Shown piece after piece: positions 44,105 to 64,000 of a stretch of 64,000 bases of DNA; within the stretch, counting starts at the first letter, position 1; each line of letters begins with the position of its first letter. The stretch covers positions 2,356,001 through 2,420,000 of the forward strand of contig NC_005027.1 of NCBI RefSeq assembly GCF_000196115.1. The letters run 5' to 3'. The notes beneath the pieces were generated by a model that had not been told where the DNA came from, made no database searches, and was given only the letters and a program-made list of their open reading frames with translations. Origin of the DNA: Rhodopirellula baltica SH 1 (lineage in GTDB: Bacteria; Planctomycetota; Planctomycetia; Pirellulales; Pirellulaceae). Position numbers and translations under genes: made by a program.

Positions 44105-44273
44105 AGACGCAATCACTTCGGGCGACAATTCAGAGACAGTCAACACACCGTGCTGATGTTAATCGCGGCCAAGAAAAAACACACCACACCCGCCAGCACT
44201 CGAGAGGCCTTTACCGAAAACCTTGACGGTGTTGCGATCGCCTGTATCGTCGACGCAAATCATTCTTGCAAAT

Positions 44274-45242: not shown

Positions 45243-45531
45243 TTTGTTTCGCAGAAAAAAACGGAACCGTGTATGTGTCGAACATAGAAGTTCCGTAGTT
45301 CTACCCGATACGGCGTGCGAGTGTCGAAGGTCCTCCGCGAGATCGATCCATCCCATCTTCATCGTCTCCGTCACCAGCGCTCTTCGGTACAACCTTTGCT
45401 CGGTTCGCTCATTGATTTGGCACCCCAGGTTTTGCATGGCTGCCTGCCACCTACTCTTCCCCAACGAGTGGTGAGCGCAATCACGCACAACGTGAAAGCA
45501 TTCGCTGCTCTCCCCCCCACAAACAACTTGG

Positions 45532-47604: not shown

Positions 47605-47633
47605 TCGCTGACATCGCTTCCATGATCACAATC

Positions 47634-47680
47634 GCGGGCCCGCCAGAAGAACTCTCCTGGCGGGCCCGCTTCATTCTTTC
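47634..47680 (+). terminator. intrinsic terminator of the WxxGYW gene
   Basis: GCGGGCCCGCCAG (47634-47646) pairs perfectly with CTGGCGGGCCCGC (47657-47669) around a 10-base loop, followed by a T-rich stretch. It lies 30 bases after the stop codon and, as a perfect inverted repeat, could also stop transcripts from the convergent gene ending at 47890. Confidence 0.82.
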
Positions 47681-47889
47681 CAACGGCCGCATGTCAGGAT
47701 GCCGCCCGAGGTAACTTGATTGCATCAGCGCTTGGGCCCCATCCATTCACCCGAATCCCACCCGAACTCGATTGTGCCAAGACCGCCAATCGACGAACTC
47801 GGTGAAGCATCCTTTTGAGACTGTTTTCACGTACAAGTCGGCGGTACGCCTTCCACTGATTCATCGCTTGGATGGTCCGAGTGAATTCA

Positions 47890-48900
47890 TCATTCCTTAC
47901 TGATCACCGGGGCCAAATACAAATTGCGATATGAGACGTTGGTGTGGTCGCCTTGCAGGTAAATCGGTCCTGGCTCATCTGGGTTGGTTTGAATCGCCCC
48001 CGCGGTCGGTCGAGAAATCGGTTCGTTGTCGATGACCTTCTGGCCATTGAGCACCACGGTCACGTGACGGTCCACCAAAGTGATATCGTACGTTTGCCAC
48101 TCGCCTCCAGCTCGCCCCGCATTCTTCGCTGGGGCAATCTCGCCGAAGATCGCCCCCACCCCTTGGATGCCTTGCATCCGGCTGTCACGGTCCACCACTT
48201 GAGCCTCGTACATGCCTCGCAAGTAAACGCCGCTATTGCGTTGTGACTCAACGAGAAATTCAAGGTGCAACCAAAAGTCCTCGAACGATTCCAGTGTCTT
48301 CAAATTGGCGTGGTCACCGGTCGCACTGAAATCGGTCTTCGGCGTGTTGTTCTGCAGCACGCCATCGACCACAGACCAGCCATTCGTTTTATCCGGCTCA
48401 TGAGTGACCCAACCGGTCAGGTCCTTGCCATTGAAAAGGGCAATTGGGTGTCCGAACTGAACCTTGGAAAGGTCCGGACGATCCGCAGGCATCCCGGAGA
48501 TCTTCGTCCCCGTGAACGTCACGCGATCCGATTCCCGTTCTGCATGTGTTCTCACCATCACACCATCCAACTCACCGTTCACCAATCCGACGTTCACGCT
48601 AGTCGTGCTCACGCGTTTGCCTTTCGACTTTTTAGCCATGTCGAATTTGACACGTCCATCAACGACGTCGACATCATGGAAGGGGCCCAGCGAACCAACA
48701 TAGATTCGAAGCGACACAACTGGTTTGCCAGATTGCTCTTCCACTCTCATCCAAGCCGGTTCACCTGTAGACAGGTCCAGCGACCAATCACCAAGCAACC
48801 TCGATGGAAAGGTTTCGCCATGAACCGTCCCAACCAGAAATGCCGCGAAGCCAAAGAACACGACTACGCCGGCCAAACAAGCATCAGAAAGAAGCTTCAT
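47890..48900 (-). CDS. DUF1080 (3-keto-disaccharide hydrolase-like) exported protein
   Basis: 336 residues from the ATG at 48900, which directly precedes a signal peptide (SDACLAGVVVFFGFAAFLVG); the longer frame to 48990 adds a second hydrophobic stretch and is less likely. After an N-terminal beta region comes the DUF1080 concanavalin-like fold: IALFNGKDLTGWVTHEPDKTNGWSVVDGVLQNN, FEDFWLHLEFLVESQRNSGVYLRGMYEAQVVD, GEWQTYDITLVDRHVTVVLNGQKVIDN and GPIYLQGDHTNVSYRNLYLAPV. DUF1080 domains include 3-keto-glycoside hydrolases and carbohydrate-binding proteins. Very common in planctomycetes. Substrate unknown. Confidence 0.87.
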   Translation of the reverse strand: MKLLSDACLAGVVVFFGFAAFLVGTVHGETFPSRLLGDWSLDLSTGEPAWMRVEEQSGKPVVSLRIYVGSLGPFHDVDVVDGRVKFDMAKKSKGKRVSTTSVNVGLVNGELDGVMVRTHAERESDRVTFTGTKISGMPADRPDLSKVQFGHPIALFNGKDLTGWVTHEPDKTNGWSVVDGVLQNNTPKTDFSATGDHANLKTLESFEDFWLHLEFLVESQRNSGVYLRGMYEAQVVDRDSRMQGIQGVGAIFGEIAPAKNAGRAGGEWQTYDITLVDRHVTVVLNGQKVIDNEPISRPTAGAIQTNPDEPGPIYLQGDHTNVSYRNLYLAPVISKE

Positions 48901-49175
48901 CACAATCTTGCAAAGTAAACGAGAGAGAAAAAGCAAGAAAACAACCCGACTCGCCGCCAAATATCTCACCACCTGAACGAACGCAATCATAAGCCAAACT
49001 CGTCACCGACATTGCCAAACACGCGTCCACCCGCCAAGTCACGTCGCGCGGACAAAGACCGCACCAATTCACCTCGCCCCAAAACAGGAACAAGTGGCGG
49101 AATGCATCTTGGAACAGCGATTTCATTTGCAATCGCTCAACAACCGAGAACTTGCCACCAATCCAACCTAAGACA

Positions 49176-49601
49176 ATGAAACAGCGAATCCTCCTCGGCT
49201 CACCCAAGCAAGTTTCCTATGGTTTGCTCGCCCTTCGCGTCGCTTTCGGCTGCTTCATGTTGGTTCACGGCCTGCAAAAAGTCATAGGGTTCTCAACGAT
49301 CTCGGAAGGATTCCCCGACCCGCTTGGCATGGGACATCAATTGAGCCTCGTTTGTGCCATCGCCACAGAAGTCGGCTGTTCGATCCTATTGATTCTCGGC
49401 CTCGGAACACGCGTCGCCGTTTCGGGGCTCGCTTTCACGATGTTCGTCGCCTTGTTCTTGGTTCACGGCAGCGACCCTTGGAAGGCCAAAGAACTCGCCG
49501 CGGTCTACCTCGCAGTCTACACCGTGATTTTCATCACCGGCCCCGGCGAATGGTCCCTCGACCAAGTACTATCCAAACAAAGCGAACCGAGAAAAAGTTA
49601 A
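49176..49601 (+). CDS. DoxX family membrane protein
   Basis: 141 residues from the ATG at 49176 (a TTG at 49152 is less likely). Four transmembrane helices: LLALRVAFGCFMLVHGLQKVI, LSLVCAIATEVGCSILLILGLGTRVAV, FTMFVALFLVHG and LAAVYLAVYTVIFI. The RVxxGxFMLxHGxQK opening is the DoxX signature. DoxX proteins are linked to quinone or thiosulfate redox and to oxidative stress in other phyla; role here unknown. It lies upstream of the MoxR/VWA cluster on the same strand. Confidence 0.87.
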   Translation: MKQRILLGSPKQVSYGLLALRVAFGCFMLVHGLQKVIGFSTISEGFPDPLGMGHQLSLVCAIATEVGCSILLILGLGTRVAVSGLAFTMFVALFLVHGSDPWKAKELAAVYLAVYTVIFITGPGEWSLDQVLSKQSEPRKS

Positions 49602-49810
49602 CTCGGCCCGGCCCACTGCAAGCGGCTTACAGAGACATATCCAGCTTTGTCGATGATCCGCGAAAGCAATTGATTCCTTAGCGAGCACAAATGCGATTGT
49701 CAAAATAGGAAATCATTCCGTGACGTTACAACACGCGGTCTCAATGCCGTGGCAGAATGAGCGAATCATTTCTGGCACGGACATGTCTTCATCGCGGGGA
49801 GAACGCACGA

Positions 49811-50704
49811 ATGGTTGCGCAATCGGAGATTGCTTGGGTACCGGGGGAACGTGATTACAAAATCGGACTTTGCTCCGGCAAACTCGTTTGCCAAAACCCA
49901 AAAGGCAAAACGCTTGCGTCCCTGCCGAAATGGTTGAAAGAGTCCGACGCGGCTGAATCTCTCAAGGCGCTCGCGGAATGGTTGGACGAACATCGAAGCG
50001 AATGCGTACACACGGTTGAACGCTGGATGCTTCGGTCGCTGCCGGTCCCCTGCGAGGTGCTGCAAGAAGTTTGGGCGGACGCGATCTGGCGGGAGAGCCT
50101 TGAAAACCTTGTGGTGGCACCGGTCGACGCCAATGGGGAACCCAACTTTGAAAAAACTGGTCTGCTACGCGACGTCGACTCAAAACGCGGGTTTGGTGTC
50201 ATCGATCTGGATGGCGAGACCCAGTGGCACAAATCAACCGGCGTGATGGTTCCCCATCCCATTCTGATTGCTGACCTCGCAGATCTTCGCGAACTCGCCG
50301 GTGACCTGGCGATCTCCCAAACCGTTGATCAGCTCTATCGAAGCGTTAACCAACCCACACCGACACAAGCGAGTTTGAAATCGATCAGCGACTACGCCGA
50401 CGGAGTGTTTGAGCAACTGAACTATGCGTTGTCTCACTGTCGACGACTGGGGTACCCCGTTCGTGGCGGCTACGCGACGTGCCGGGTTTGGGAAAACGAA
50501 ACCATGACAGAAGCCCGCTATTTCGTTGGGGACGAATACCCTGAATCCGAAACCTATACGGGCCAATTGGTGTTCGTCGACGAAGGTGAAAAAGCAGTCA
50601 AGATCGGCGACCTCGGCGCAGTCACGTTCAGCGAAGGTGTTCGAATGGCGGCAGCAATCTACGCGAAGCGAAAAGTGGAAGATTCACCGGAGGAATCAGC
50701 ATGA
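49811..50704 (+). CDS. DUF4132/MolR-like small protein, first gene of the MoxR/VWA cluster
   Basis: 297 residues from the ATG at 49811 (GGGGAG upstream); a longer frame begins at 49757. No signal peptide. Residues about 90-290 follow the plan of the DUF4132 C-terminal region: EVWADAIWRESLENLVV, then VPHPILIADLADLRELAGDL, then a helix ending in QTVDQLYR, and a beta-rich end (ATCRVWENETMTEARYFVGD, TGQLVFVDEGEKAVKIGDL). If right, this is a detached DUF4132 end module; no WGR domain is seen. DUF4132 homology is inference from residue patterns. The stop overlaps the next ATG by 4 bases (ATGA). Confidence 0.6.
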   Translation: MVAQSEIAWVPGERDYKIGLCSGKLVCQNPKGKTLASLPKWLKESDAAESLKALAEWLDEHRSECVHTVERWMLRSLPVPCEVLQEVWADAIWRESLENLVVAPVDANGEPNFEKTGLLRDVDSKRGFGVIDLDGETQWHKSTGVMVPHPILIADLADLRELAGDLAISQTVDQLYRSVNQPTPTQASLKSISDYADGVFEQLNYALSHCRRLGYPVRGGYATCRVWENETMTEARYFVGDEYPESETYTGQLVFVDEGEKAVKIGDLGAVTFSEGVRMAAAIYAKRKVEDSPEESA

Positions 50705-53700
50705 GCCCAGCAAAAAAGAAATCCGGTCAATCCACCAAAGCCGCCACGAAAACTTCGCCTAGCAAAGCAACCACGAAACCCAAAGCAGTCAAAAAAGCAA
50801 CTCAAAAGAAGACCGCTCCGGCGCCAGGCACCACCCAGTCCAAGGCAGGGAAGAAGCCTGTCTCCAAGAAACCCGTTGCCAAACGCTCCGCAGAGCAAAT
50901 CCGTACGGACGCGCAGTTGGCTGCCGGCGGAATGGTTCACGTCCATTCAAAAGTCGACACGAATGCGACCGAGAAGGTTGTGGCGCGACGGTACACTGGC
51001 GCAGCTCTGGGCGACCAAGTTGTGGTGCGACTGAGTGCTGATCGCCTGGGTCCGGCAGAAGATCTGGCGATGGAATACTTGGGGCTAAAACCTGACGGTG
51101 AAAGCAAGCCGATTGCGTTGCGAAGTCGCCAGGCAATGGGCTTTGCAAGTTGGGCCTTGATCACTCACCCGGAAAACGCCAGGGATGCCTTGGATCTGGT
51201 CAAACGCATCAAAGCAGCGGCTAGAAAGGCGAAGTCGAAGCCGGGACATGCGATGGATTCCTTCGTGGAAATGGCGGGTGAACTGAATCGTTCTGTCCGC
51301 CATTTTTTGCCCCCGTTTTGGGAAGAGGCCGCTCGCATTTACAAAGACCTCGGCAACACAACCTACGCCGGCCGCGCGATCGGCAAAGCGTTGGAAGCGG
51401 AGCGGGTTCATGCGCTGGATGTGGATCCACACCGACGCCGAGATGCCGTGCTGGAGTTCACGCTCAGCGGTTGTCTTTCCGGCAAAGCGTTGTCCGAATA
51501 CACACGCGACCTCGCGAATCAGTTCGCTCCCGCGGAAGCCTTCGAAACGTTGATGGACCTGATGGTTCGGCGGACCATGGGCGGAATGCCACCAATGGCA
51601 ACCGCGGCAAAGGACCTGGCAAAATTCGCCAAGGCTGCGGGCAGAAACCCCCACGAGGAGGTCGACTCGTTTCTGCAGAACGTGATTTCGTCCCCGGCAA
51701 TGTCACGGACTTCCATGCAATTTTGGAAATCAGTGAAAAAGAACGTTGCGCGTCTGGTCGCTGCGGATGATGCGTTCGGTGTTTGGTTGCTGGCGCACAC
51801 CGACCCGCAAGCTTCCTACCAAGGTGACAGTCCTGTGTGGGAATGGTTGAATTTGTTAGACGAATGGAACGTGCTGCCTCTGCTCGGAAAGCCCGCTTCT
51901 GAATTGCCTGCCGGGGTCGAGATTCCCGGCGGCCGAGCCGGTTGGATTGGACGACTCGCATCCGTTGAGACATCTCCCCAACCACGACTGTTTGATTTGA
52001 TCTCGCTCGCCGCAGATGCGATTCGAGACGAGGCCGTGCCGATCCCTCTCAATGGAAGAGGTTACTACGGTGGAGTGCTTGACGCAGACGCATTGGAATG
52101 GATGCTGGAACTGAAACTTCCCATCGGCCAATTCCATGAGCACCGAGCGATCAGTTTCGAAGGATGGTTGCGAGCCGAGGTCGATCATGAACGCCGGAAC
52201 TCGCAACTGTCGCACCTGATTGCAGATGAACGATTTGGGCCCAAGGTCTACTCCGCGTTTCCTGAACTGGTCACGTTCACCGGCAGCGTTCGTGAGCGGC
52301 GTAGTTATGGACGCACTCTCGCGGCCCAACGCAGTTTCGAACAGGCGGCGGCGAACCATGACGCCGTGCGAGAACTTTGGTGGCGGTTCCTCGACAACCA
52401 TCTGCAAAAACTCGAACAGGGCGGTTTGTACGACGCTGAGACCAGCCTGAACGCATTGGTCAGGTGCGCAGGATCCACCACGGGCGAACAATTCCCTGAA
52501 CTAGAAAAGCGGCTCAAAAAGATTGACATGGTCGCAGTTCTGCAACGAACTCTCGCCGCCGGTGTGCTCGATGAATTTGGGTGGCCAGCGTTGGACGCCT
52601 TCGGTGACGAACAAGCACTCCCAGTGAATTCGCGACGCCACGCTGTTGTCGACACAAGCTTTCCCTTCGTCACGTTGCTGGTCAATGGAAAGGTCGAATC
52701 GATCGGTCCCACAGGCCACCGGACACTGGGTGAGTTTCAACTTGGCAAGGATCAATACGTTCAAACAATCATTCCGGTCGGTGATGACGCAGTCATCGGT
52801 TTGCAGGACACCAGTGCAGGCTACCAAAACCAGATTGCATGGTTGAGTGAAGGTGGAAAGGGGCAGAAGACAGACCAATACTTCTATGGTTTGGATATCG
52901 AGATGCTTCTGCCGCACGATGGTGGAGTGTTTTACGGAAGCCGAGTTTTGAGGCCCGGTGATCAATCCCTTCCCTCCTCGCAACATTGGTTCTCGGATGG
53001 TGAGCGATTTTGGACGCTAAAGAATCGGTATCAGGTGTGGAACGAATTCGACTCATCCGATGACACTCCAAACAAGCCAACGGCGAGCCTACAAGAAATC
53101 GATCCGATCACTGGCGAGCCAATTCGCGATAGCATTCCGCCCTGGTTCGAAGACCAGGCACCTCATGGAGGCATGGTGAATTGGCAAATGTCACATTGGC
53201 TGCCCGCTCCTCCGGAAATCAAACAATCGCCTCTTGGAGTGGCGGATGGAAAATTTGGCTTTCGTGTCGTTCAGCGACGCGATCATCGCTATGAAAGTCG
53301 CGGCATCGACGGACGAGAAATTGTCTTGTCCAGCCCTCCGGCACAAGGAGGTGGCATCACGTTCGCAACAGCGATCATTGACAAGCCTGCGACCGACTCA
53401 CATTGGTATGTTTCCAATGGAGAAGAATTGGTCGATGCCGACAGCGGGATGAAGATCGCCAACCTTTCCGGCAACGTCACACGGTATTGCGAGGGGCAAC
53501 CGATGAAGCTGCCCACGCTGTTCTATCACTATTATCAAGTTCGCAGCGCCGGAAGCTCCGCCAAACTTCGCAAGATCAGTCTGAAACAGGCCAAGCAACT
53601 CTTCGAAGCAGGTGCCATTGAACACGAAGCCTTGAAGACCAAGGTGGACCCTAAAAGCCCCGATCCCAATCGCGAAGCTGGTGCCGCAGCCGTTCAGAAA

Positions 53701-55998
53701 TTTCTCGCGAAAGCGCCACCGCGTTTGGTGAAGGGGATTGCTCGCATCTCACGCATTGCTGCGGTTGAGAAACTTTCACTCGACAAGCTCATCAGCAAGG
53801 TGGATGGAACGGCCGATGATGCCAAACAAGCCAAGAAATTGGCCAGCACTCAAACGGCGGCCGACCCGCTGAATGATCAAGCTGTCAGAAACGGGCTGAC
53901 GGAGTTGCAAATCCCGCTCGATTCCATCCAGGTCCCGACCAGTTCGTATGGTGCCCATCGGAATGCGTTGTCCCCTGAGCAATTGGTCGCCGCGACCAAA
54001 TTTTTCGCGGGAGGTGAAGTGGAAAAGCAGCCTCGCGGACAAGGCGTTTTCTTCGGCCTGATCGACGATGCCGCCTCCGCCGCTTGGAAGGCGTTCTGGG
54101 ACAACGCTCATCGTGGCGCCGACGACGGTGTGCCACCGAAGCAACGAATTGCCGGTCCCTATCAAGACGCCCTGCGATTCGTCGCGGACTGCGGCATTTT
54201 GGACCTCCCCGGAAAAATGGTCGTCCATGTCGCCGAGGTTCCCGATGAAGCGGTCGCGAAGAGACTCGCCAAAGCGGGAAAAGGCCTGGATGATGATCGC
54301 GCGGTCGCGTTCATCGAAGGCAAGACTCGTCATCTGGCTTACAAAATCCATAGCTACATGGCCGATCGAGTCGTGGTGCTTTCTTATAGCGAGTCGGGTG
54401 AGCCCAAACCGCCGAAGTCCTATGCGATCATCGATTCCGCACCGCTGCGAAAACGATGGACGGGAAAATCCGTTCGGCACTTTCTCGAAGCCGTTTCGAA
54501 CGTCGAAACCTTGCCACTCGTTTCAACAGAAAAGCTGGCGAACGCTGCCGAAACCTTGGGAGTCTCGCCGATTGAAGTTGCTCTGGGATGGATGGCCAAT
54601 TTCCGAACCGTCCATTACGGGCAAGAGAAGCTGACCAAAGAACTGCGAGCCCACTACGGTTGGAAGGTCAACGAAATCAAGACTGCCGTGACAGCCGCTG
54701 ACGCTGATCCTGTCCCCCTGTCCATTCTTGCAAATGGATGTCGCCGTGATTGCGCGGGAGCTCTCGGCAAAAACATCGATCGCTGCTTTGATTTCATGGT
54801 GGAAGCTTGGAAAGAAACCCAAAAGGCCAGTGTCCAGTTGCCGACAAAAGTGATCGGTCAATTGCAAAACTTGCGTGGCGGTTACTTCCGTTTCGACATC
54901 AAGTTGTTCAGCGAATTTTTGGCTGCCCCGTTGAGTTCCCCTGTCCTGATGACACGTGAACTTGAATTCGGGTACAACGAACAACGACATCGAGAAGTTT
55001 TAGAAGGATCGCTGAATCCGCCTTTGACGTTCTCGTTGGGAGAAGCGTTGCCGATCTTGCCGGCTGCCATTCGCTACCTGAACTACAGCCTGCCTCATGG
55101 CGATCCAGCACGAACGAAAATCCCTGCACTGATCGATGCGGTCCGAGACCACTTGCTCAACCCAAAGACAGCCTTGCCGATGGGGTGCAGCAGGACACAG
55201 CCTTACCGTGCAGATCAAGAAACGGACGTGGAGGGCACCATCGAAACGTTTTCCACCATGATTGCGAAATGCCAACCTGCTCCGGGTGGTTTCCACACCT
55301 TTGACAGCGGACTGGTCGTGGGTGCGATCTTGCCACCGGCGGTGGATATGTGGTTCCGGCCCGCTCAATTGCAGAACGAATCGGACGCAGGAGCCTTGCA
55401 CGTAGCGGCTGCTTTGACGTTCGATTGGGAAACCGACGGAACCCGACATCTGCACTTCGCCGACTTCACACAGATCATGCGAAGTGATGAGATGACGCGA
55501 ATCGCTGACCACAACCGGCAACCGACTCTGACGGTTGGAGCATGGGAGCAGGACCCTCGAGTCTCGTCTCCCGAAACGGTCAATGTCGCAGCAAAGAAAT
55601 GCAAGTTGAGCGAGGATGCGGCGACGTTGTATTTGCAACTCCTGGCCCTTCCCGATTGCACCGCCGTCAACATCAAATCTTGGAATGATTGGACCACAGC
55701 AAGATTCAAAAAAGCGAGCGAGGAATTGGTTGCGGGCGAGTACGTTGTGTCCGCCAAACGCAGCCGCGCCGGTCGCGACGTGTTCCTGCCAGGTGGATGG
55801 GAAGCCTTGAAACTGCCCAACTTGCCAATCGAAACGTGGAAGCTACCGCTGTTTGGGTACACCAATTCAGAACCCCTGCGAGGCGGATACGCGAGCCTGA
55901 TTGTGTGCCCGCGAACACTCCCCGATCAATTCGCAAAGGCTTGGCAACGGATCGAGGATGGTGACACGCCCAAGTACGAAGAAGCAATGCCGGGCTAG
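50701..55998 (+). CDS. giant uncharacterised protein with histone-H1-like tail, MoxR/VWA cluster
   Basis: 1765 residues, cytoplasmic. The first 65 residues are Lys/Ala/Ser/Thr-rich (PAKKKSGQSTKAATK, then KKPVSKKPVAKRS), like a histone H1 tail, suggesting nucleic-acid contact. A helical region follows (ARDALDLVKRIKAAARKAKSKPGHAMDSFVEMAGELNRSVRHFLPPFWEEAARIYKDLGNTTYAGRAIGKAL). The middle (about 640-1000) is rich in beta strands with repeats like TLLVNGKVESIGPTGHRTLG and AVIGLQDTSAGYQNQIAWLSEGG, possibly a beta-propeller. The C-terminus has a winged-helix-like stretch (DWTTARFKKASEELVAGEYVVSAKRSRAGRDVFLPGGWEALKLPNLPIETWKLPLFGY). Similar large proteins occur next to SWIM/MoxR/VWA genes in actinobacteria (from memory). 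No enzymatic motif found. Confidence 0.85.
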   Translation: MSPAKKKSGQSTKAATKTSPSKATTKPKAVKKATQKKTAPAPGTTQSKAGKKPVSKKPVAKRSAEQIRTDAQLAAGGMVHVHSKVDTNATEKVVARRYTGAALGDQVVVRLSADRLGPAEDLAMEYLGLKPDGESKPIALRSRQAMGFASWALITHPENARDALDLVKRIKAAARKAKSKPGHAMDSFVEMAGELNRSVRHFLPPFWEEAARIYKDLGNTTYAGRAIGKALEAERVHALDVDPHRRRDAVLEFTLSGCLSGKALSEYTRDLANQFAPAEAFETLMDLMVRRTMGGMPPMATAAKDLAKFAKAAGRNPHEEVDSFLQNVISSPAMSRTSMQFWKSVKKNVARLVAADDAFGVWLLAHTDPQASYQGDSPVWEWLNLLDEWNVLPLLGKPASELPAGVEIPGGRAGWIGRLASVETSPQPRLFDLISLAADAIRDEAVPIPLNGRGYYGGVLDADALEWMLELKLPIGQFHEHRAISFEGWLRAEVDHERRNSQLSHLIADERFGPKVYSAFPELVTFTGSVRERRSYGRTLAAQRSFEQAAANHDAVRELWWRFLDNHLQKLEQGGLYDAETSLNALVRCAGSTTGEQFPELEKRLKKIDMVAVLQRTLAAGVLDEFGWPALDAFGDEQALPVNSRRHAVVDTSFPFVTLLVNGKVESIGPTGHRTLGEFQLGKDQYVQTIIPVGDDAVIGLQDTSAGYQNQIAWLSEGGKGQKTDQYFYGLDIEMLLPHDGGVFYGSRVLRPGDQSLPSSQHWFSDGERFWTLKNRYQVWNEFDSSDDTPNKPTASLQEIDPITGEPIRDSIPPWFEDQAPHGGMVNWQMSHWLPAPPEIKQSPLGVADGKFGFRVVQRRDHRYESRGIDGREIVLSSPPAQGGGITFATAIIDKPATDSHWYVSNGEELVDADSGMKIANLSGNVTRYCEGQPMKLPTLFYHYYQVRSAGSSAKLRKISLKQAKQLFEAGAIEHEALKTKVDPKSPDPNREAGAAAVQKFLAKAPPRLVKGIARISRIAAVEKLSLDKLISKVDGTADDAKQAKKLASTQTAADPLNDQAVRNGLTELQIPLDSIQVPTSSYGAHRNALSPEQLVAATKFFAGGEVEKQPRGQGVFFGLIDDAASAAWKAFWDNAHRGADDGVPPKQRIAGPYQDALRFVADCGILDLPGKMVVHVAEVPDEAVAKRLAKAGKGLDDDRAVAFIEGKTRHLAYKIHSYMADRVVVLSYSESGEPKPPKSYAIIDSAPLRKRWTGKSVRHFLEAVSNVETLPLVSTEKLANAAETLGVSPIEVALGWMANFRTVHYGQEKLTKELRAHYGWKVNEIKTAVTAADADPVPLSILANGCRRDCAGALGKNIDRCFDFMVEAWKETQKASVQLPTKVIGQLQNLRGGYFRFDIKLFSEFLAAPLSSPVLMTRELEFGYNEQRHREVLEGSLNPPLTFSLGEALPILPAAIRYLNYSLPHGDPARTKIPALIDAVRDHLLNPKTALPMGCSRTQPYRADQETDVEGTIETFSTMIAKCQPAPGGFHTFDSGLVVGAILPPAVDMWFRPAQLQNESDAGALHVAAALTFDWETDGTRHLHFADFTQIMRSDEMTRIADHNRQPTLTVGAWEQDPRVSSPETVNVAAKKCKLSEDAATLYLQLLALPDCTAVNIKSWNDWTTARFKKASEELVAGEYVVSAKRSRAGRDVFLPGGWEALKLPNLPIETWKLPLFGYTNSEPLRGGYASLIVCPRTLPDQFAKAWQRIEDGDTPKYEEAMPG

Positions 55999-56136
55999 AG
56001 ATCGCTTGATCGACACTGCACTACCAATCGGTCGTGCAGCGTGACGACGCATGACGCAGGTCATCGTAGGATCGCCCGAGAAGGCTCGCTCCATTGCATC
56101 CGCAATTTTGATACACACTCACCGAGATGGAACCCA

Positions 56137-57339
56137 GTGGCAAAGAAAAAGTCCAGAACGACAACGACCTCCGCTCGTTCAACGCCTGATGGTCCAACGT
56201 CCGATCGCCGCATTCAATTGCCTCCCGCTGAAGTTCGATATGCAGACGAACTCAAAGCGCTTCGCGAATCGGACAACCTGCCGCGTCCCGAGGGTTGGTC
56301 CCTGTCTCCTCAAGCGGTCGTGGATTTCATCTGCGGCAGCGACGGAGTGAAGGTTGGCAAAACCAAGGCAACGTCGTGTGTGATTAGCGAAAAATTTGTG
56401 GGCTCGCGAGACATCGTGCAACGATGCGTTGTCACACTCGCTGGCGAACGCGGGTTGATGATGGTTGGTGAACCTGGCACCGCGAAATCCATGCTGGGTG
56501 AATTGCTTGCCGTGGCGATCAGTGGCACCGGATCATTGGCCGTCCAAGGGACCGCCGGAACCACCGAAGACCAAATCAAGTACGGTTGGAACTATGCGAT
56601 GCTGCTTGATCGCGGCCCCGTTCACGAAGCACTTGTTCCTTCACCAGTCATGACCGCCATGCGAGACGGCAAAGTCGTTCGCTTTGAAGAAATCACGCGT
56701 TGCTTGCCGGAAGTCCAAGATGCTCTGATCTCCATCCTGAGTGAACGCAGAATGATGATTCCCGAGATGGACCAGGCCGGCGACGACAACGCAAACAGTG
56801 TTTTCGCGAGCCCTGGCTTTTCCATCATTGCGACTGCGAACCTCCGCGACCGAGGCGTGTCAGAGATGTCCGCCGCGTTGAAGCGGCGATTCAATTTTGA
56901 AACCATTGCCCCGATCGCTGATGAAGTCCGCGAACGTGAACTCGTTTCCACCCGGGCGGCAGCGTTGTTGGCGGAAACCGGCGCGCAGGCAACGGTGGAC
57001 CAATCGCTCGTCGAATTGCTGGTCACCGTTTTTCGTGATTTGCGGAACGGACGCAGCGACGAGGGCTGGCAAATTTCGCGTCCGAGCACGGTCATGAGCA
57101 CAGCCGAAGCGGTGGCCGTCGCGACAGCGATCACCCGCGAATGCGTCTTCTTCCCGAGTGGATTTGATCCCGTCTCTCGCATGCCGGGACACTTGCTTGG
57201 GGTGGTGATGAAAGACGAGGCAAAGGATCGCGAACGATTGCTGGCGTACTGGGACGGCCCCGTTCGTCGCCGCGCCGAAGACGGGTCCCCACTTTGGAAA
57301 CGTTTGGTGGAACTGCGCGGCGTGCTGGAAGAAGAATAG
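56137..57339 (+). CDS. MoxR-family AAA+ ATPase (YehL-like)
   Basis: 400 residues from a GTG at 56137 (GAGATGGAA upstream); the frame extends upstream to 56041. AAA+ core: Walker A GEPGTAKS (111-118), Walker B VVRFEE (180-185), sensor 1 ATAN (232-235) and RRF arginine finger region near 250; the long helical insert typical of MoxR lies after the Walker A (LAVQGTAGTTEDQIKYGWNYAMLLDRGPVHEALV). MoxR ATPases act with VWA-domain proteins as chaperones that insert metals or remodel substrates (RavA-ViaA, NorQ-NorD, CbbQ-CbbO). Here the VWA partner is fused to DUF5682 in the next gene, 11 bases downstream. Confidence 0.95.
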   Translation: MAKKKSRTTTTSARSTPDGPTSDRRIQLPPAEVRYADELKALRESDNLPRPEGWSLSPQAVVDFICGSDGVKVGKTKATSCVISEKFVGSRDIVQRCVVTLAGERGLMMVGEPGTAKSMLGELLAVAISGTGSLAVQGTAGTTEDQIKYGWNYAMLLDRGPVHEALVPSPVMTAMRDGKVVRFEEITRCLPEVQDALISILSERRMMIPEMDQAGDDNANSVFASPGFSIIATANLRDRGVSEMSAALKRRFNFETIAPIADEVRERELVSTRAAALLAETGAQATVDQSLVELLVTVFRDLRNGRSDEGWQISRPSTVMSTAEAVAVATAITRECVFFPSGFDPVSRMPGHLLGVVMKDEAKDRERLLAYWDGPVRRRAEDGSPLWKRLVELRGVLEEE

Positions 57340-57350
57340 GTCTCACGCTC

Positions 57351-60300
57351 ATGCAACCGCTTCTCCAATCCCGAACACCTTGGCTGATCGGCGTCCGACA
57401 TCATTCGGCAGCACTCGCCCGTGCCATGCCCGCAATGTTGAATGACTTCGCACCGGAATGTTTGTTGGTCGAATTGCCAGGCGATCTGCAGGATTGGATC
57501 GAACACCTCGCCGATCCACAAACAATCGCCCCCGTCGCAATCTCAGCCGTGCACCCGGAGCATGGTCTGTTTTTCTATCCCTTGGCTGACTTCTCGCCAG
57601 AATGGGTGGCAATCCGCTGGGCAAAACAACGCGGGATTCCCGTCGTCGCATGTGATCTGTCGGTCGCTGCAAAATCACAGCTTGCCCACTCGGATTCCGA
57701 AGAACCGACAGATGACGTTCCCGGCCCGTTCGAAAATCACGGGCATCACGACGTTGTTACGACTGGACTCGATGAACTGCTCCGTCGCTGTGGAGAGACC
57801 GATACCGGTGGCCTTTGGCAACGATTGGTTGAATCGCCTGGCTTTGGTTCGGATCACGAATCGATCCGTCGTGCCGGCCTGATGTTCGGATGGGCAGTGC
57901 GTGAGAGTTCGCCAGTCGTTTCGCATCGTGATTTGCTCCGAGAGGCCGCGATGCGAACCGCCATTCGCCAGGCGCCCGCTCACTCCGCTGCCGTCGTGGG
58001 TGCATTCCATGCCGCCGCTCTGCTTCCGTCGGTGATCGAATCTTCCGAAGAACAGGACCTACAATTGTTGGATGGTGTTTCGGTTGAATCGAGCGCATCG
58101 GTTGGTGTATCGCTCGTGCCTTACTCTTTCGAGCAACTCGATGAACGCAGCGGTTACCCGGCAGGAGTTCGCGATCCCGTCTGGCATCAGCGAATGTTGG
58201 AATCATCCACTGCGGAACAGGCCGATGCAGCGTCCGCGGAATTGGTCACCGCCATTTGTCGGCATTTGCGAAAACAAGGACACGTCGCGGGAATGCCCGA
58301 CGCTTGCGAGTCGCTACGGATGATGCGGGATTTGGCGAGACTTCGTGGTTTGCCCGTTGCAGGTCGTGGCGAGATGGTCGAAGCGATCCAAAGCTGCCTG
58401 GTACAAGGTGACTTGATGGGACGCGGTCGCGCCGTTGCGAGTGCTGCTGAATCCGTCTTGATCGGTCATCGAACCGGTTGTGTGACTCCCTTGGCTCCCA
58501 GGTGTGGGCTCGCCGTTGAAATCGACGACCAACTCGCGGCGTTGAAACTGCCGGGCCGTGAATCGTTCGGAGAAGACTCCCACCCAACATCCCCCCGCTC
58601 ATCCAATCGTTATCAACGCGGATCACGTTCACAGCGAGACAGCGAAACGAAAGAGATCAAACTGGATGTGCTCCGCAGCCCTCGTGACCGAGCGCGTGCC
58701 GTGGTGCTGCGTCGCTTCAATGCCGCGGGGATTCCCTACGCGGTCCGTGTCGACGAAGTCCAACAGGGACACCGGGAAAACTTAGTCGAGCGATGGCAGA
58801 TTGGATGGCAACAGGGCACCTCCGCGACCATTGAATCGGTCTCACGATATGGAGTGACATTGCGGCAGGTGGTCGAAGGAATGGTGAGGGCAGTCGGCAA
58901 AACTCCTGGCCAATCGGAAGCAGAGGCGGAGACGTTGCCCGCCAACATTTTGCATCGTCTGCAAATCGCGACTCAGTGCGGACTGGTCACGCTGGCTCGC
59001 CAAGCATTGCAACAGCTCAGCGGTTCATTCCGTCAGGCAGCGGGTCTGTCTCAGTTAGTGGAAGCAATCACAGTCATCACACAAATTCACGCTGGTCAGG
59101 TGCCAGGCCTGCCGTCGGACAAGAACGCCGCCTACCCACCATGGGTCGAGACCTTCGCCTTGCCGGATGCGGAAACGCAAATCAACGAACTTTTGCAAAC
59201 CTGCCTGCAGCGACTCTCTGGCATCGGTGGATCCAATGATCCCGCCGATGTGATGGCAATCGTCGATCTGCTGGATTGGCTGACCGGCGACTTGCAGGCT
59301 GTCACCCTTAGCGGCGATCAAACCAGCACCTCGGAATCATGCCGAGTGCAGATCGCACACTGGTGTCGACGAACCCAACGCACGGGGAGTGATCGCATGC
59401 GAGGTGCTGCGGCGGCAGCCTTGTCTCGCTTGGACACATCCCCGGATGATTTCCGTGCAACCGAAACTGGCGACCAATGGACCGCGCTGACGAGAGGCTG
59501 GTTGGATTCAACCGGGAACCGCGAAGGTCGCCAGCGTCTTCAATACGCACTCGCCGGTGCGACTCAAGTCTTGCTGCCGCAGATGCAGAGCGACGCCTTT
59601 TGGCTGAGTGGAATTCATTCGGGTATCGCCGAGATGGGCGACGACGTTTTCTTGTCGCGGTTGCCTTCCTTGCGGGGTGCGTTCGCTGAGTTTTCCCCAG
59701 CCGATCGGCAGCGTTTGCTGCAAGTCTGCTTGTCGGAACTGGACGAACGCGGGTCAAACCTGGATAGCAGTGGCGCGTCGTTGTCCTCCATCCAGGAAGG
59801 CGATTCCGCGGCGATCACCGATGAACTGGGACGATTGCGAGAAGCCGACTTGGCGGGAAAAAGTGCGATCGACGCGGCCTACCCCGAGTGCCGCGATTGG
59901 TTGCAATCGTTTCGCTTCGACAACCAATCGCCGGGCGAAGGGGCCCCCCCTTCGATCAGTTCCAAGACGTCCGAGAGCTCACCTTCCCAGGCACATCGCC
60001 ACAACGACGAACTGAATTTGGCCGATCGATGGCGGCTGATCTTTGGATTGCCGCCCGAATCGGGAACACCACTGGCGATGCGATGTGCGTCGTCACTCGA
60101 TCAGCTTTATGGACGAGGGCATGGGGAAGGCTCTCGTGGCGGTCTAGCCAACGCACCTTCGGGAATGGGTGGCGGCACCGAGGCACCGGAACCAACAACA
60201 GCCCAGTGGGCCGAAGACCTCGAGGCTCTGTTTGGTAGCGATTTGTGCCAAGAAGTCTTGGGCACCGCTGCGGGCAACGGACGCTCCACCGCGATCGAAC

Positions 60301-61169
60301 TGCTTGACCCCGACACCGTCACCCCATCTCTCGAACTTTTGCAACAAGTCCTCTCGTTAGCGGGCGCAATGCCCGAGTCCAAGGTCGCTACCCTGAGACG
60401 GTTGGCCCGACGTTTGACCGAACAATTGGCTTCCGAGCTTGCGGTGCGACTGCAACCTGCAATGAACGGTCTGTCCTCCCCGCGACCGACACGGCGACGA
60501 GCTCGAAAGCTGAACTTGCCCCGCACCCTTCGCGACAACCTTGCCAATTGCCATCGACGAGCCGATGGACGGGCAACCATTGTCGCTGAAAAGCTGATGT
60601 TTCACTCGCCGTCGAAACGGCAGATGGATTGGCACGTGACGTTTGTCGTGGATGTCTCAGCGTCCATGTCAGCGTCGGTCATCTACAGCGCGTTGGTGGC
60701 AGCCGTGTTCGATGCTCTGCCCGCACTTTCGGTTCGCTTCTTGGCCTTCAGTACCGAAGTGCTCGACTTCAGCGAACAAGTCGCCGATCCCTTGTCGCTG
60801 TTGTTGGAAGTCCAGGTCGGCGGAGGCACGGACATCGGGCTGGGGCTTCGAGCGGCACGGGCGGGAGTGACCGTCCCGTCCCGAAGCATCGTGATTCTTG
60901 TTTCCGATTTTGAAGAAGGCGTGTCGGTCGGTCGGATGATCGCCGAAGTTCGCGAGCTTGTCGACGCAGGAGTCAAATGCCTTGGCTTGGCATCGCTCGA
61001 CGACTCCGGAGTGGCACGATTCCATCAAGGTTACGCGGCGATGATGGCGGGTGCGGGCATGCCGGTTGCAGCCGTCAGTCCAGAAAAATTGGCCCGCTGG
61101 GTCGGCGACCAAATCCGCGGCACCCAACAAGCAACCAACCCGTCCGCTGGTCTGGGAGGAATCGAGTGA
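57351..61169 (+). CDS. DUF5682-VWA fusion protein (YehM plus YehP type)
   Basis: 1272 residues from the ATG at 57351. N-terminus is DUF5682: WLIGVRHHSAALARAMPAMLNDFAPECLLVELPGDLQDWI, then PVAISAVHPEHGLFFYPLADFSPEWVAIRWAKQRGIPVVACDL. A long helical middle follows, with a Gly-rich, acidic linker near residue 940. The C-terminus (about 1095-1270) is a VWA domain of the CoxE/MoxR-partner type: MIDAS motif DVSASMS (D1101, S1103, S1105), GGGTDIG (Thr near 1159) and VSDFEEG (Asp near 1186). In E. coli the two parts are separate genes (yehM, yehP). The VWA should engage the MoxR ATPase encoded just upstream. Stop overlaps the SWIM gene start by 4 bases (GTGA). Confidence 0.92.
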   Translation: MQPLLQSRTPWLIGVRHHSAALARAMPAMLNDFAPECLLVELPGDLQDWIEHLADPQTIAPVAISAVHPEHGLFFYPLADFSPEWVAIRWAKQRGIPVVACDLSVAAKSQLAHSDSEEPTDDVPGPFENHGHHDVVTTGLDELLRRCGETDTGGLWQRLVESPGFGSDHESIRRAGLMFGWAVRESSPVVSHRDLLREAAMRTAIRQAPAHSAAVVGAFHAAALLPSVIESSEEQDLQLLDGVSVESSASVGVSLVPYSFEQLDERSGYPAGVRDPVWHQRMLESSTAEQADAASAELVTAICRHLRKQGHVAGMPDACESLRMMRDLARLRGLPVAGRGEMVEAIQSCLVQGDLMGRGRAVASAAESVLIGHRTGCVTPLAPRCGLAVEIDDQLAALKLPGRESFGEDSHPTSPRSSNRYQRGSRSQRDSETKEIKLDVLRSPRDRARAVVLRRFNAAGIPYAVRVDEVQQGHRENLVERWQIGWQQGTSATIESVSRYGVTLRQVVEGMVRAVGKTPGQSEAEAETLPANILHRLQIATQCGLVTLARQALQQLSGSFRQAAGLSQLVEAITVITQIHAGQVPGLPSDKNAAYPPWVETFALPDAETQINELLQTCLQRLSGIGGSNDPADVMAIVDLLDWLTGDLQAVTLSGDQTSTSESCRVQIAHWCRRTQRTGSDRMRGAAAAALSRLDTSPDDFRATETGDQWTALTRGWLDSTGNREGRQRLQYALAGATQVLLPQMQSDAFWLSGIHSGIAEMGDDVFLSRLPSLRGAFAEFSPADRQRLLQVCLSELDERGSNLDSSGASLSSIQEGDSAAITDELGRLREADLAGKSAIDAAYPECRDWLQSFRFDNQSPGEGAPPSISSKTSESSPSQAHRHNDELNLADRWRLIFGLPPESGTPLAMRCASSLDQLYGRGHGEGSRGGLANAPSGMGGGTEAPEPTTAQWAEDLEALFGSDLCQEVLGTAAGNGRSTAIELLDPDTVTPSLELLQQVLSLAGAMPESKVATLRRLARRLTEQLASELAVRLQPAMNGLSSPRPTRRRARKLNLPRTLRDNLANCHRRADGRATIVAEKLMFHSPSKRQMDWHVTFVVDVSASMSASVIYSALVAAVFDALPALSVRFLAFSTEVLDFSEQVADPLSLLLEVQVGGGTDIGLGLRAARAGVTVPSRSIVILVSDFEEGVSVGRMIAEVRELVDAGVKCLGLASLDDSGVARFHQGYAAMMAGAGMPVAAVSPEKLARWVGDQIRGTQQATNPSAGLGGIE

Positions 61170-63019
61170 ATCCCGAACTCCCTTCGATCGCTGCAGAATT
61201 GCTCGCCGAGATCATCGAAGCGGCGCCCGGTCGGGTTCGCAAACGTTTGGATCGCAATCCCGCAGCGGCATCCAACTGGCAATGGGAACAAGCCAACGGC
61301 GGATGGACCATTTCTGCTGGAGATGAGACGGTTCAGTTGCATCTGGGCGACCAGCAGACCGTGCTCAACAGTGAGATGGTGTCCTGCTCCTGCCTGTTGT
61401 CTCCCAAGTGCTTTCATCTTCTCGCCGTTGTCACCTCACTGACGATCGCCGATGAAGCGGAGCCGAAAACCGATCTCAAAACGGACCATGATGCTCCGAG
61501 CCAACCCGGGTCCGACGGCGACGATGTCGAAATCACCGACGGCATACGAGGTGCGGCCCAACAAAGCTTGCAGGCAATCGACAGCCTGTTGGTGAGTGGC
61601 GCACGGGCCAGCGGATTGATTATCCAGTCCACATTGCTTCGCGCCGCCCATCAATCCCGCGCCGAAGGCTTGGTGAACTTGTCCGCCAGCCTGATTCGCA
61701 TGGCCGAAGGAATCCAGCGACTGCGCGCGGGTGACGAACACGCGGATTGCGATCAACTTTGCCGAGACACAACCACCGCCATCGAAGCCGCTCACGGTTT
61801 GATTCGGGCCGACTCAGTCCCGAAGTCTCAGCTCGGATACGCTCGACGTCCGTTCTCACCCAATGCGCTGAAGCGGTTGACCGGCGTGGTGGCTGAACCA
61901 ATCTTGACGTTGAGTGGTTACGCTGGCGTGGTCACACACTTGATCGGCGACGATGGGGACATCTACCAAGTCGTCGAGACCCGGCCCGGAGACGCGAACC
62001 TGATCAACCAAGCCTATCGAGGCGGGATTGATTTGGGTGAGACAACGGCTTCGGCACAAGTCATCAGCCGCTCGCGGATCGACGTTCAAAACCTGACCAG
62101 TTCACCAGATGGTCGACTCGGAAAGGGCGGCAAAACCCGTTGGGCCATCCAGCCGGTGCAAGAAAGTCACGCTGCGGATCTCTCAACGTTGCATTGCCAT
62201 TGGACGAAAGACATTCGCGAACAAATCTCGCGAGTGTTTGATGCAACCGCTACGCCTGAACAGCCACTGCCCCGCGATCGCAACCTCGTCTGCGTCCAAG
62301 GCACCATCGTCGCTGCCAAGGGAGCGGGTGTCTTGTTTCAACCTGTTGATTGCAACGCCACACTGACGCTCGGGATCGCGATGGACAATGCGGCGGTGAT
62401 GTACCGGCAAAACCTTCAAATGTTGGCGAGGTGCCCCGGACTGTCGATCGAGATCTTCGCGAGATTGCGGTTGAACCAAGCGGGCTGGATGGATGCCCTG
62501 AGCTTTCGTGCGTTGTCCGAGGAAGTGACCTTTCCGGATCATTGGTTGGGCCGCTGTCATCTCGGACTTGATGCACTGCAACGACATCATTTTCAGAACA
62601 CTCAAAGATATGTCGAAGACGTCGAGCAACAACGAAAACAACCATCGCCAGCTGAACACAACGTATTAATTCGCAATGCCGTCGACACACGCAGTTCGAA
62701 GAGTGAATTGTTTCCAGGCCTCGAAAAACGTTGTGCAGCCATGGTGATCGGTGGTCGAAGTTCCGTCGGATCCATCAGTTCTCGCACTCACCGACAGGAC
62801 CATGCACGGCTGGTCGCTAGAGGCCAACGCACAGCGGCGGGTCTGTTGAACCACTTGGCGATGGCATGCGCCGAATCCCCAGCCGTCACGCGGCGTGGCA
62901 ACGTCAATCACGCTTCCGAAAAACACCGTCGCCCCCTCATCCTTGCCGTGATCGACCAATACTGCCGCGAATTCAGAAGCCACTACGAACGCGACCAATG
63001 GCGACGCTGGTTGGGTTGA
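61166..63019 (+). CDS. SWIM zinc-finger protein (YehQ-like)
   Basis: 617 residues from a GTG at 61166, preceded by GGGAGG at good spacing and overlapping the previous stop (GTGA). SWIM zinc finger near the N-terminus: C74-x-C76, C82-x-H84 in MVSCSCLLSPKCFH. SWIM fingers bind nucleic acid or protein. The rest is helical (IRGAAQQSLQAIDSLLVSGARASGLIIQSTLLRAAHQSRAEGLVNLSASLIRMAEG) with a C-terminal part of unknown fold. It ends the five-gene cluster. Role probably in substrate or nucleic-acid recognition (inference). Confidence 0.9.
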   Translation: MNPELPSIAAELLAEIIEAAPGRVRKRLDRNPAAASNWQWEQANGGWTISAGDETVQLHLGDQQTVLNSEMVSCSCLLSPKCFHLLAVVTSLTIADEAEPKTDLKTDHDAPSQPGSDGDDVEITDGIRGAAQQSLQAIDSLLVSGARASGLIIQSTLLRAAHQSRAEGLVNLSASLIRMAEGIQRLRAGDEHADCDQLCRDTTTAIEAAHGLIRADSVPKSQLGYARRPFSPNALKRLTGVVAEPILTLSGYAGVVTHLIGDDGDIYQVVETRPGDANLINQAYRGGIDLGETTASAQVISRSRIDVQNLTSSPDGRLGKGGKTRWAIQPVQESHAADLSTLHCHWTKDIREQISRVFDATATPEQPLPRDRNLVCVQGTIVAAKGAGVLFQPVDCNATLTLGIAMDNAAVMYRQNLQMLARCPGLSIEIFARLRLNQAGWMDALSFRALSEEVTFPDHWLGRCHLGLDALQRHHFQNTQRYVEDVEQQRKQPSPAEHNVLIRNAVDTRSSKSELFPGLEKRCAAMVIGGRSSVGSISSRTHRQDHARLVARGQRTAAGLLNHLAMACAESPAVTRRGNVNHASEKHRRPLILAVIDQYCREFRSHYERDQWRRWLG

Positions 63020-63330
63020 GTGAATACCCGCCAATGAGGCAGATACTGGAGTTGCCGGTCTCAACCTCTATCTAGCCTTGATGGAAGAAAGAGGATTGTG
63101 GTGCACTTGAGTCAGCAGAGTCGAACAAAATGCCTGACCGCAATTGAGGTCGTTACAATGAAGCGAGGATTGGCAGAGAAATTACGTTGATCCGTTTGGC
63201 GATTGGTTTTCTTCTGCTTGCATGCCGTTTTCATTCGCGGGATGCATCTCGACGACGCCTTGCTTTTCAGACGCATCGCCCTTTTGCGTCGCTACCCGAC
63301 TCCCCCGTTCCGCTGGAGCGACCAACATTC
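63020..63330. other. 311-base intergenic region
   Basis: It lies between the SWIM gene and the NYN gene. No gene beyond a possible N-terminal extension of the NYN frame from a TTG at 63187 (hydrophobic, LAIGFLLLACRF), which I do not take because the ATG at 63331 fits the family start. No strong terminator seen. Confidence 0.5.
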
Positions 63331-64000
63331 ATGCCCAACGCCCATCCCGAAGGTAGCATCGCGTTGCTGATTGATGCTGACAATGCACCGTCCTCCAAGA
63401 TCGAATTCATCATTTCTGAACTGGCCACCTACGGTATCGTCAACATTCGAAAGGCATACGGGAACTGGACCAAACGAGGCTTGGAAGGTTGGATCAATGT
63501 GCTACACGAGTACGCGATCGCACCGACTCAGTGCTTTGATTTGATCAAGGGCAAGAATGCAACCGACATGGCCTTGCTGATTGACGCGATGGACATTCTC
63601 TACACGAGACAGGTCAACACCTTCGGATTGGTTTCATCGGATTGCGACTTCACGCCGCTGGTCTGCCGTTTGCGGGAAGATGGCAAGCAAGTCATCGGAT
63701 TTGGACGTCAGAACTCGCCTGCACCATTTGTCTTGGCCTGCAGCCACTTCATCTACTTGGACGAAGAACCCACCGAGAAAGCGCCGCCCAAAAAGAGGCG
63801 GGAAAGTTCGGTATCGTCGCTGCAAAAGAACACGAAGCTCATGAACACGCTTCGAACCGCGGTGAAGGAAGCCGCCGATGACGATGGTTGGGCGGAACTC
63901 GGACCGGTCGGAGCTCATATCTCGAACCAAGGTCCCTTCAGTCATCGAACCTATGGGTTCCCCAAACTCAGTGACATGTTCGATGCAATCGATCTATTCG
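63331..64000 (+). CDS. NYN-domain ribonuclease with LOTUS/OST-HTH domain, 3' end outside window
   Basis: The frame is open to the end of the window, 223 residues seen. The N-terminal NYN (PIN-like, LabA/DUF88-type) nuclease: IALLIDADNAPSSKIEFIISELATYG (acidic residues D15, D17), TDMALLIDAMDILY and VSSDCDFTPLV. After a basic linker (KAPPKKRRESSVSSLQK) comes an OST-HTH/LOTUS module (LMNTLRTAVKEAADDDGWAELGPVGAHISNQGP, then YGFPKLSDMFDAIDLF) that binds RNA or partners. This pairing is common in bacterial NYN proteins, probably RNA-processing enzymes. ATG at 63331 with GGAGCG upstream. Confidence 0.9.
   Translation, partial: MPNAHPEGSIALLIDADNAPSSKIEFIISELATYGIVNIRKAYGNWTKRGLEGWINVLHEYAIAPTQCFDLIKGKNATDMALLIDAMDILYTRQVNTFGLVSSDCDFTPLVCRLREDGKQVIGFGRQNSPAPFVLACSHFIYLDEEPTEKAPPKKRRESSVSSLQKNTKLMNTLRTAVKEAADDDGWAELGPVGAHISNQGPFSHRTYGFPKLSDMFDAIDLF

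Follow-up and report, generated by a model that had tools for sequence, protein, structure and literature searches.

The window analysed here is a stretch of 64,000 nucleotides of Rhodopirellula baltica SH 1 (NC_005027.1, positions 2356001-2420000; the genome is one contig with a length of 7145576 bases). It contains a cassette of five plus-strand genes, referred to below as g1 to g5, in which a MoxR-type AAA+ ATPase is accompanied by a protein combining a DUF5682 region with a von Willebrand factor A (VWA) domain and by three further proteins (Table 1). Re-reading of the sequence reproduced the genes with all the starts, overlaps and gaps described in a first-pass annotation of this DNA. The identities proposed there for g1 (DUF4132), g3 (MoxR/AAA) and g4 (DUF5682 plus VWA) were borne out by Pfam, which matched g3 to AAA_5 (2.3e-38) and g4 to DUF5682 (1e-134) and VWA_CoxE (1.8e-50, spanning 1049-1270 in the g4 open frame of 1291 residues). 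Neither g2 nor g5 has a Pfam match at an expectation value (E) of up to 1.

Table 1. Features of the cassette and its site, in window coordinates
Feature	Position	Strand	Product	Junction or basis
g1, stand-alone DUF4132 protein	49811..50704	+	297 amino acids (aa)	Pfam DUF4132, 1.9e-27
g2, orphan protein	50701..55998	+	1765 aa	ATGA overlap with g1
g3, YehL-type MoxR AAA+ ATPase	56137..57339	+	400 aa, GTG start	138-base gap after g2
g4, DUF5682-VWA fusion	57351..61169	+	1272 aa	11-base gap after g3
g5, SWIM-motif protein, YehQ relative	61166..63019	+	617 aa, GTG start	GTGA overlap with g4
All-beta, propeller-like part of g2 (residues ~649-924)	52645..53472	+		AlphaFold model and Foldseek
Predicted TIKI/TraB-like domain (g4, first ~290 residues)	57351..58220	+		Invariant residues, hhalign
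Motifs of the TIKI/TraB-like domain in g4: GVRHH, VE41, SPE84, D102, RE198, GAFH220				
VWA metal-ion site DVSAS ... GGGTD ... SDF	60651..60914	+		Sequence
SWIM motif CSCLLSPKCFH in g5	61385..61417	+		Sequence
Stretch absent from three sister genomes	49566..63284	.		Approximate edges, end of DNA similarity

The proteins of the cassette

The ATPase g3 shares 48.5% identity with E. coli YehL over 373 aligned positions (1e-107). The usual Walker B motif ends in Asp-Glu. The Walker B motif of g3 (RFEEITR, window 56677-56700) carries Glu-Glu, and FEE or a similar sequence is found in all 17 aligned YehL relatives. The P-loop reads GEPGTAKS, and all but one of 17 aligned relatives (16 of 17) share its TAKS. 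Seven MoxR subfamilies have been named, YehL among them (PMC3893208). The metal-ion site of the VWA domain is intact, and of the fused homologues above 1130 aa in length 28 of 29 have DxSxS. Among the proteins in which the VWA domain stands separately, a DxSxS-type site was found in 37 of 46 with a pattern in which the first Asp may be followed by Gln or Glu, and the five that were inspected of the nine outside that pattern read MDQSGSM. A stricter pattern without Gln/Glu at this position found 0 of the 46 and was discarded as too narrow.

The g1 protein aligns with the DUF4132-bearing C-terminal end of the YehI family (hhalign 98.4%, 8.5e-15). The earlier assignment of g5 as a SWIM protein held as far as the motif and the family are concerned: 15 of the 16 family members collected carry the C-x-C-x5-C-x-H motif, and the family profile aligns with that of YehQ over 577 columns (hhalign 99.7%, 8e-27). 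It did not hold for the Pfam SWIM model PF04434, which gives no row for g5 at E up to 1. In the planctomycete loci L041, L046 and L048 the YehQ-type proteins have no CxCxnCxH motif, and the zinc site would not be indispensable there.

The largest protein, g2, is an orphan. PADLOC gave no match at E up to 1, PHROG none up to 0.01 and a PDB sequence search none; NCBIfam contributed one row at E 0.22. A family of 42 members, g2 included, was collected, and its profile aligned in hhalign with none of YehI, HEAT/DUF5691, g1, g4, YehQ and g5. The possibility that g2 is a diverged YehI found no support (best E 0.21). An AlphaFold model of residues 570-1765 has a predicted local distance difference test score (pLDDT) of 87.3. 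It has an all-beta part, and among the best 50 of 319 Foldseek matches clathrin terminal domains and propellers of the WD40 type rank first, the best E being 3.5e-3 and no match reaching 1e-3. Helices with mixed strands make up much of the rest of the model. In Streptomyces a homologue bears the sole annotation "DNA-binding protein", for which no reason is stated.

A TIKI/TraB-like signature at the N-terminus of DUF5682

In all 63 aligned DUF5682 homologues the residues R16, H17, E41, S82-P83-E84, D102, W156, E161, R197-E198, G217 and H220, counted from the start of g4, are invariant. This pattern resembles that of the TIKI/TraB/ChaN/Ere enzymes, and a profile comparison was therefore run. The first ~290 residues of DUF5682 matched TraB-family frames from the fetched loci in hhalign with a probability of 90% (1.5e-6). 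Against a cleaned TraB set, from which frames unlike the others had been removed, the values were 70.9% and 3.8e-5 in local mode and 66.7% and 7e-6 in global mode, and against four ChaN-family proteins 68.3% and 4.7e-5 (local) and 88.8% and 2.8e-7 (global). In neither mode did any of eight control alignments do better than 0.19. In the global TraB alignment H17 falls opposite the His of GTxH and E41 opposite the next Glu, while R197 is matched to the Arg of RN and H220 to the His of GAGH.

The His-Glu pair (H17, E41) and the second His (H220, in GxxH) of the TIKI/TraB type are thus present in 63 of 63 DUF5682 homologues, and this His/Glu/His signature of the TIKI/TraB/ChaN kind is the new observation made here. 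The His-Glu pair is reported to be conserved across TIKI-domain proteins (PMC6254334). Kinship of the DUF5682 N-terminus with the TIKI/TraB enzymes is, on its sequence, likely, and the region looks like a hydrolase domain whose activity is itself a prediction. The likeness to the superfamily consists of the signature and the profile similarity; it differs in that a long helical region and the VWA domain come after it, and in that one Glu of the Ere/RRSP quartet is missing from its usual place. E84 and E198 are further invariant Glu residues known here from sequence.

Several observations weigh against a hydrolase. Cleaning the TraB set lowered the hhalign probability from 90 to 71, and the controls were drawn from families of the same system only. 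There is no Glu two residues before H17 (GVRHH), so that the full set of two His and two Glu of Ere and RRSP is not present; because of this, DUF5682 is, from the residues it has, not placed in the Ere/RRSP branch of the TIKI superfamily. A member of the superfamily without the catalytic set was inactive in an assay (PMC6254334). A structure model of 860 residues of DUF5682 (pLDDT 88.4) has no Foldseek match in the PDB below 1e-3, and the best 50 of its 616 matches are by title mostly helical-repeat proteins. A PDB sequence search with the DUF5682 protein found none either, the best E being 0.035.

Partner sets and genomic site

The GTDB species collection was scanned with 17 aligned MoxR proteins, and the best 80 of 591 confirmed relatives, a ranking that favours close relatives, were examined together with a second sample of 27 planctomycete loci. 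Actinomycetota make up most of the organisms named among the 80, alongside some planctomycete and Myxococcota-type records. All five genes were found by tblastn with the window's own proteins in 37 of the 80 and in 4 of the 27; among the 80, another 9 have some of g1, g2 and g5, and 34 have g3 and none of them. Profiles recognised the same 41 loci as holding all five genes, and 41 of 41 preserve both order and strand; these profiles were partly built from the loci counted, and the tblastn count is independent of that. Because the same order recurs in other phyla, the five-gene set is far beyond chance, and the neighbourhood comparison upholds the earlier description of a conserved set.

The cassette had also been compared to the E. 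coli yehI/yehL/yehM/yehP/yehQ genes. That parallel is sound for the MoxR protein, DUF5682, VWA, the DUF4132 end and the YehQ-type SWIM protein, which are all present in both (g4 is 33% identical to YehP and 25% to YehM), and it fails for g2. In E. coli, DUF5682 and VWA are separate proteins and DUF4132 ends the long YehI; in the window the former are fused, as they are in related cassettes elsewhere, and DUF4132 has its own gene, g1. The g2 protein has no detected E. coli counterpart and no detected kinship with YehI. Of the features of a YehL-type system, the window has the close MoxR, the linked DUF5682-VWA and the YehQ-type partner, and lacks the single long YehI. Judged by its proteins, the cassette is a sister variant of the Yeh set and not the Yeh set itself.

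A third arrangement, SWIM-DUF5691-MoxR-DUF5682-VWA, occurs on Deinococcus, Rhizobium and Methylosinus plasmids and in some planctomycetes. It has the same core and a SWIM protein, together with its HEAT/DUF5691 partner; in contrast to the window, no DUF4132 or g2 is recognised, DUF5682 and VWA are separate, and the partners lie upstream. Flanks of 8 kilobases (kb) or more on both sides are available for 56 of the 80 loci: 31 carry the core with g1, g2 and g5, 24 carry YehI and YehQ, and one more, L069, has g1, g2 and g5 with the DUF5682 N-terminus undetected; the remaining 24 were too short for a partner-set call. Seventeen of the 27 planctomycete loci qualified, 9 of the others falling short in length and L028 lacking MoxR; the 17 comprise 4 with g1-g5, 4 with Yeh, 3 with SWIM and HEAT/DUF5691 and 6 without a recognised partner.

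These partner sets were mapped onto a quick maximum-likelihood MoxR tree of 112 rows, representing 111 of 113 loci and the window; L028, having no MoxR, and L050, which is on the same contig as L038, were omitted. Long branches were flagged in the tree, and the partner labels follow score thresholds set in this analysis. Over the 98 labelled rows the three sets require 2 changes, the minimum possible. When all rows are counted, including 14 unlabelled ones, several of which are contig ends, the changes are 3 for g1-g5, 4 for Yeh and 4 for the DUF5691 type, and all four states together require 11 changes vs a mean of 50.4 after shuffling. As the partner sets follow the MoxR tree, they are read as three stable subtypes of one machine, and they show which genes to treat as one machine.

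Some loci depart from these sets. Four of them (L026, L027, L030, L032) lie in the DUF5691-type part of the MoxR tree and have no recognised partner within ~8 kb. Two of the six partnerless planctomycete loci have a pentapeptide-repeat protein by the core (L042:12775-14964 and L045:5908-8379), a fourth partner type; a SWIM-like Cys/His stretch is seen by eye in that of L045. On a Hymenobacter plasmid (L189:4183-7212) a DUF5691 protein of 1009 aa carries DUF5691 in its C-terminal half, and a match to the SWIM-partner profile there hints at a fusion. Eight loci (L097, L098, L105, L106, L107, L110, L111, L125) have two or three YehI-type matches by the core, some of them partial, which suggests that YehI-type genes have been repeatedly duplicated.

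The site itself was examined by BLAST of window 44000-64000 against four sister genomes, L129 to L132. In L129, L130 and L132 the DNA similarity ends at 49548-49565 and restarts at 63285-63305, with 603, 790 and 425 bases, respectively, between the edges vs ~13.7 kb in the window. The match to L131 is limited to part of the upstream gene and is uninformative on the site. Since the site is empty in three of the four sisters examined, the block seems to have been gained or lost whole. DUF5682 is present in 6 of 12 other genomes of the genus and missing in 6; three of the six carriers (L037, L039, L040) have the g1-g5 set, and three (L026, L027, L032) have the core but none of the partners recognised. 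By tblastn, none of the three proteins flanking the block in the window has a match in 11 loci, some being short contigs, and L037, L039 and L040 have no flanking frame in common at 1e-5. Because flanking frames are not common between carrier loci, the block occupies different places in related genomes.

Edges of a mobile element were not borne out. There is no tRNA in window 44000-64000, no boundary repeat among four direct-repeat families and no integrase among the seven neighbour frames scanned; the guanine plus cytosine content is 0.54-0.60 in the block vs 0.53-0.58 around it, with no clear foreign mark. The scanned neighbours are a tetratricopeptide repeat protein, a DUF1559 protein with an N-methylation motif, GH95-like and esterase-like proteins, a WXXGXW protein, a 3-keto-disaccharide hydrolase-like protein and, directly downstream (window 63187 onward), an NYN nuclease with an OST-HTH/LOTUS domain. 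The NYN-LOTUS gene belongs to the flank common to the three sister genomes, outside the cassette. Matches were found in 40 of 72,556 plasmid records, several of them chromosome-sized, and one of 50,697 phage records matches g4. A scan of IMG/VR found at least 24 loci with 23-34% identity over part of MoxR only, which were taken for other MoxR types; phage carriage was set aside on these partial matches and the phage-record count.

Proposed mechanism and rival explanations

The following description starts from what is observed: a conserved gene set in constant order, present or absent as a unit, the invariant His/Glu/His signature, and an intact VWA metal site and P-loop. The cassette may encode a machine, complete in itself, that remodels proteins at the expense of ATP and contains a predicted hydrolase, a reading to which a probability of roughly 0.4 is given. 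In NorQ/NorD, a finger of the VWA protein enters the MoxR pore and the use of ATP is thought to move the partner (PMC9976466, where the pair is likened to McrB-McrC; the NorQD precedent is also described in PMC13036017). By analogy, g3 would form the MoxR ring, and the VWA domain of g4 would dock on it in the manner of NorD on NorQ, inserting a finger into the pore. Hydrolysis of ATP would then move g4, so that its N-terminal TIKI/TraB-like domain is opened or pressed onto a target. The partly helical, partly propeller-like g2, the DUF4132 protein g1 and the SWIM protein g5 would select and hold this target. The hydrolase activity, the docking mode and the roles of g1, g2 and g5 are the parts of the scheme that we infer. 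NorQ/NorD and RavA/ViaA likewise pair a MoxR ATPase with a VWA partner; their gene partners are different, and in the cassette DUF5682 takes the place of the NorD-type N-terminal domain. The TIKI/TraB likeness of the central protein provides a first testable job for the machine, and we lean towards a physiological role in remodelling or proteolysis. The explanations considered here overlap, and the confidence placed in them need not total one.

The characterised MoxR/VWA pairs act as chaperones or metal-insertion helpers (PMC9976466, PMC3893208), and the cassette could possibly, if doubtfully, be one more helper of the NorQ/NorD, CbbQ/O or RavA/ViaA kind, with DUF5682 as a structural adaptor and no bond broken. 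The weak relation of g3 to GvpN in NCBIfam (1.8e-7, 30.9 bits vs a cut-off of 266.8) would agree with this, as would the near-universal presence of the Yeh form in E. coli, where yehL-Q are covered to at least 80% in 5162 of 5426 genomes and yehI likewise in 5177. The yehM mutations in copper-exposed populations (PMC12409786) are a loose hint of metal. A bare adaptor, however, would have no need of invariant polar residues coinciding with the TIKI/TraB signature, and no metalloenzyme was recognised among the seven neighbour frames. A system of biological conflict, directed against phages, appears unlikely. Related MoxR-VWA systems have been proposed as such (PMC7159879), and the patchy distribution in relatives (27 of 117 genomes), the empty sites, the tandem YehI-type copies and the plasmid matches point in this direction; the patchiness in the genus and the empty sites would suit an accessory role of whatever kind. 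One of these systems, the MoxR-VWA-beta-propeller ternary (subsystem 4 of that survey), shares with the cassette a TAKS-type P-loop and a large propeller-like protein, but g4 has no propeller C-terminal to its VWA domain and the bpMoxR model of Pfam scores g3 at 21.4 bits, below the cut-off of 27. The survey, in its accessible portion, names no YehL, DUF4132 or SWIM. The conflict role raised in the first-pass annotation thus finds little support: PADLOC gave no defence-profile match (best E 0.025), no defence gene was recognised among the seven neighbours, phage records hardly carry g4, and Yeh is near-universal in E. coli.

DNA-associated modules in some of the presumed recognition proteins bring to mind a machine for DNA damage or for the clearing of nucleoprotein; this is judged quite improbable. 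WGR is present in YehF and in one of four YehI-type proteins scanned, and Pfam BRCT is found in the pentapeptide-repeat protein of L042. The molR gene is listed as LexA-regulated (PMC11039860, PMC4576408), and DUF4132 and WGR genes are reported as upregulated on depletion of Deinococcus DdrO (PMC8533742). Yet Pfam finds no WGR or BRCT in g1-g5 or in E. coli YehI, and no BRCT in the second pentapeptide case, L045. Two SOS-box patterns were scanned over 109 sequences (107 loci, L022-L128, with L002 and the window); matches occur, and only that of E. coli yehF lies close before the first gene, its letters having gone into the pattern and the box types of other phyla lying outside the scan. SOS control as a common feature was accordingly rejected. 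The yehF site, LexA-like and just upstream of the gene in K-12 (L002:450-465), agrees with the listing of molR. A bolder version of the remodelling machine, and a long shot, is a protease-like, protein-cutting counterpart of McrBC in which the MoxR ring drives a TIKI-type hydrolase carried on its own pore plug. Its target would be protein stuck on damaged DNA, such as nucleoprotein or DNA-protein crosslinks, reached through exchangeable modules (WGR-HEAT-DUF4132, BRCT-pentapeptide, or g1 with g2 and SWIM).

No mention of DUF5682 was found in the open literature, subscription papers being outside the search. DUF4132 occurs there in three papers, PMC11674859 among them, and two or more of yehL/M/P/Q appear together in two genome papers; many matches to related terms are unrelated uses of the letters. 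The accessible part of the R. baltica transcriptome paper (PMC2754498) has a sole mention of VWA, which is not attributable to the cassette locus. The partners of YehL appear only in passing: in genome lists, in a microarray list, where yehP is among the genes lowered in simulated microgravity (PMC3589462), in the copper selection cited above and in a butanol study. A predicted enzyme domain with named residues makes DUF5682 a testable claim, in E. coli K-12 too, and a yehQ deletion strain, made in the butanol study, exists in K-12 BW25113.

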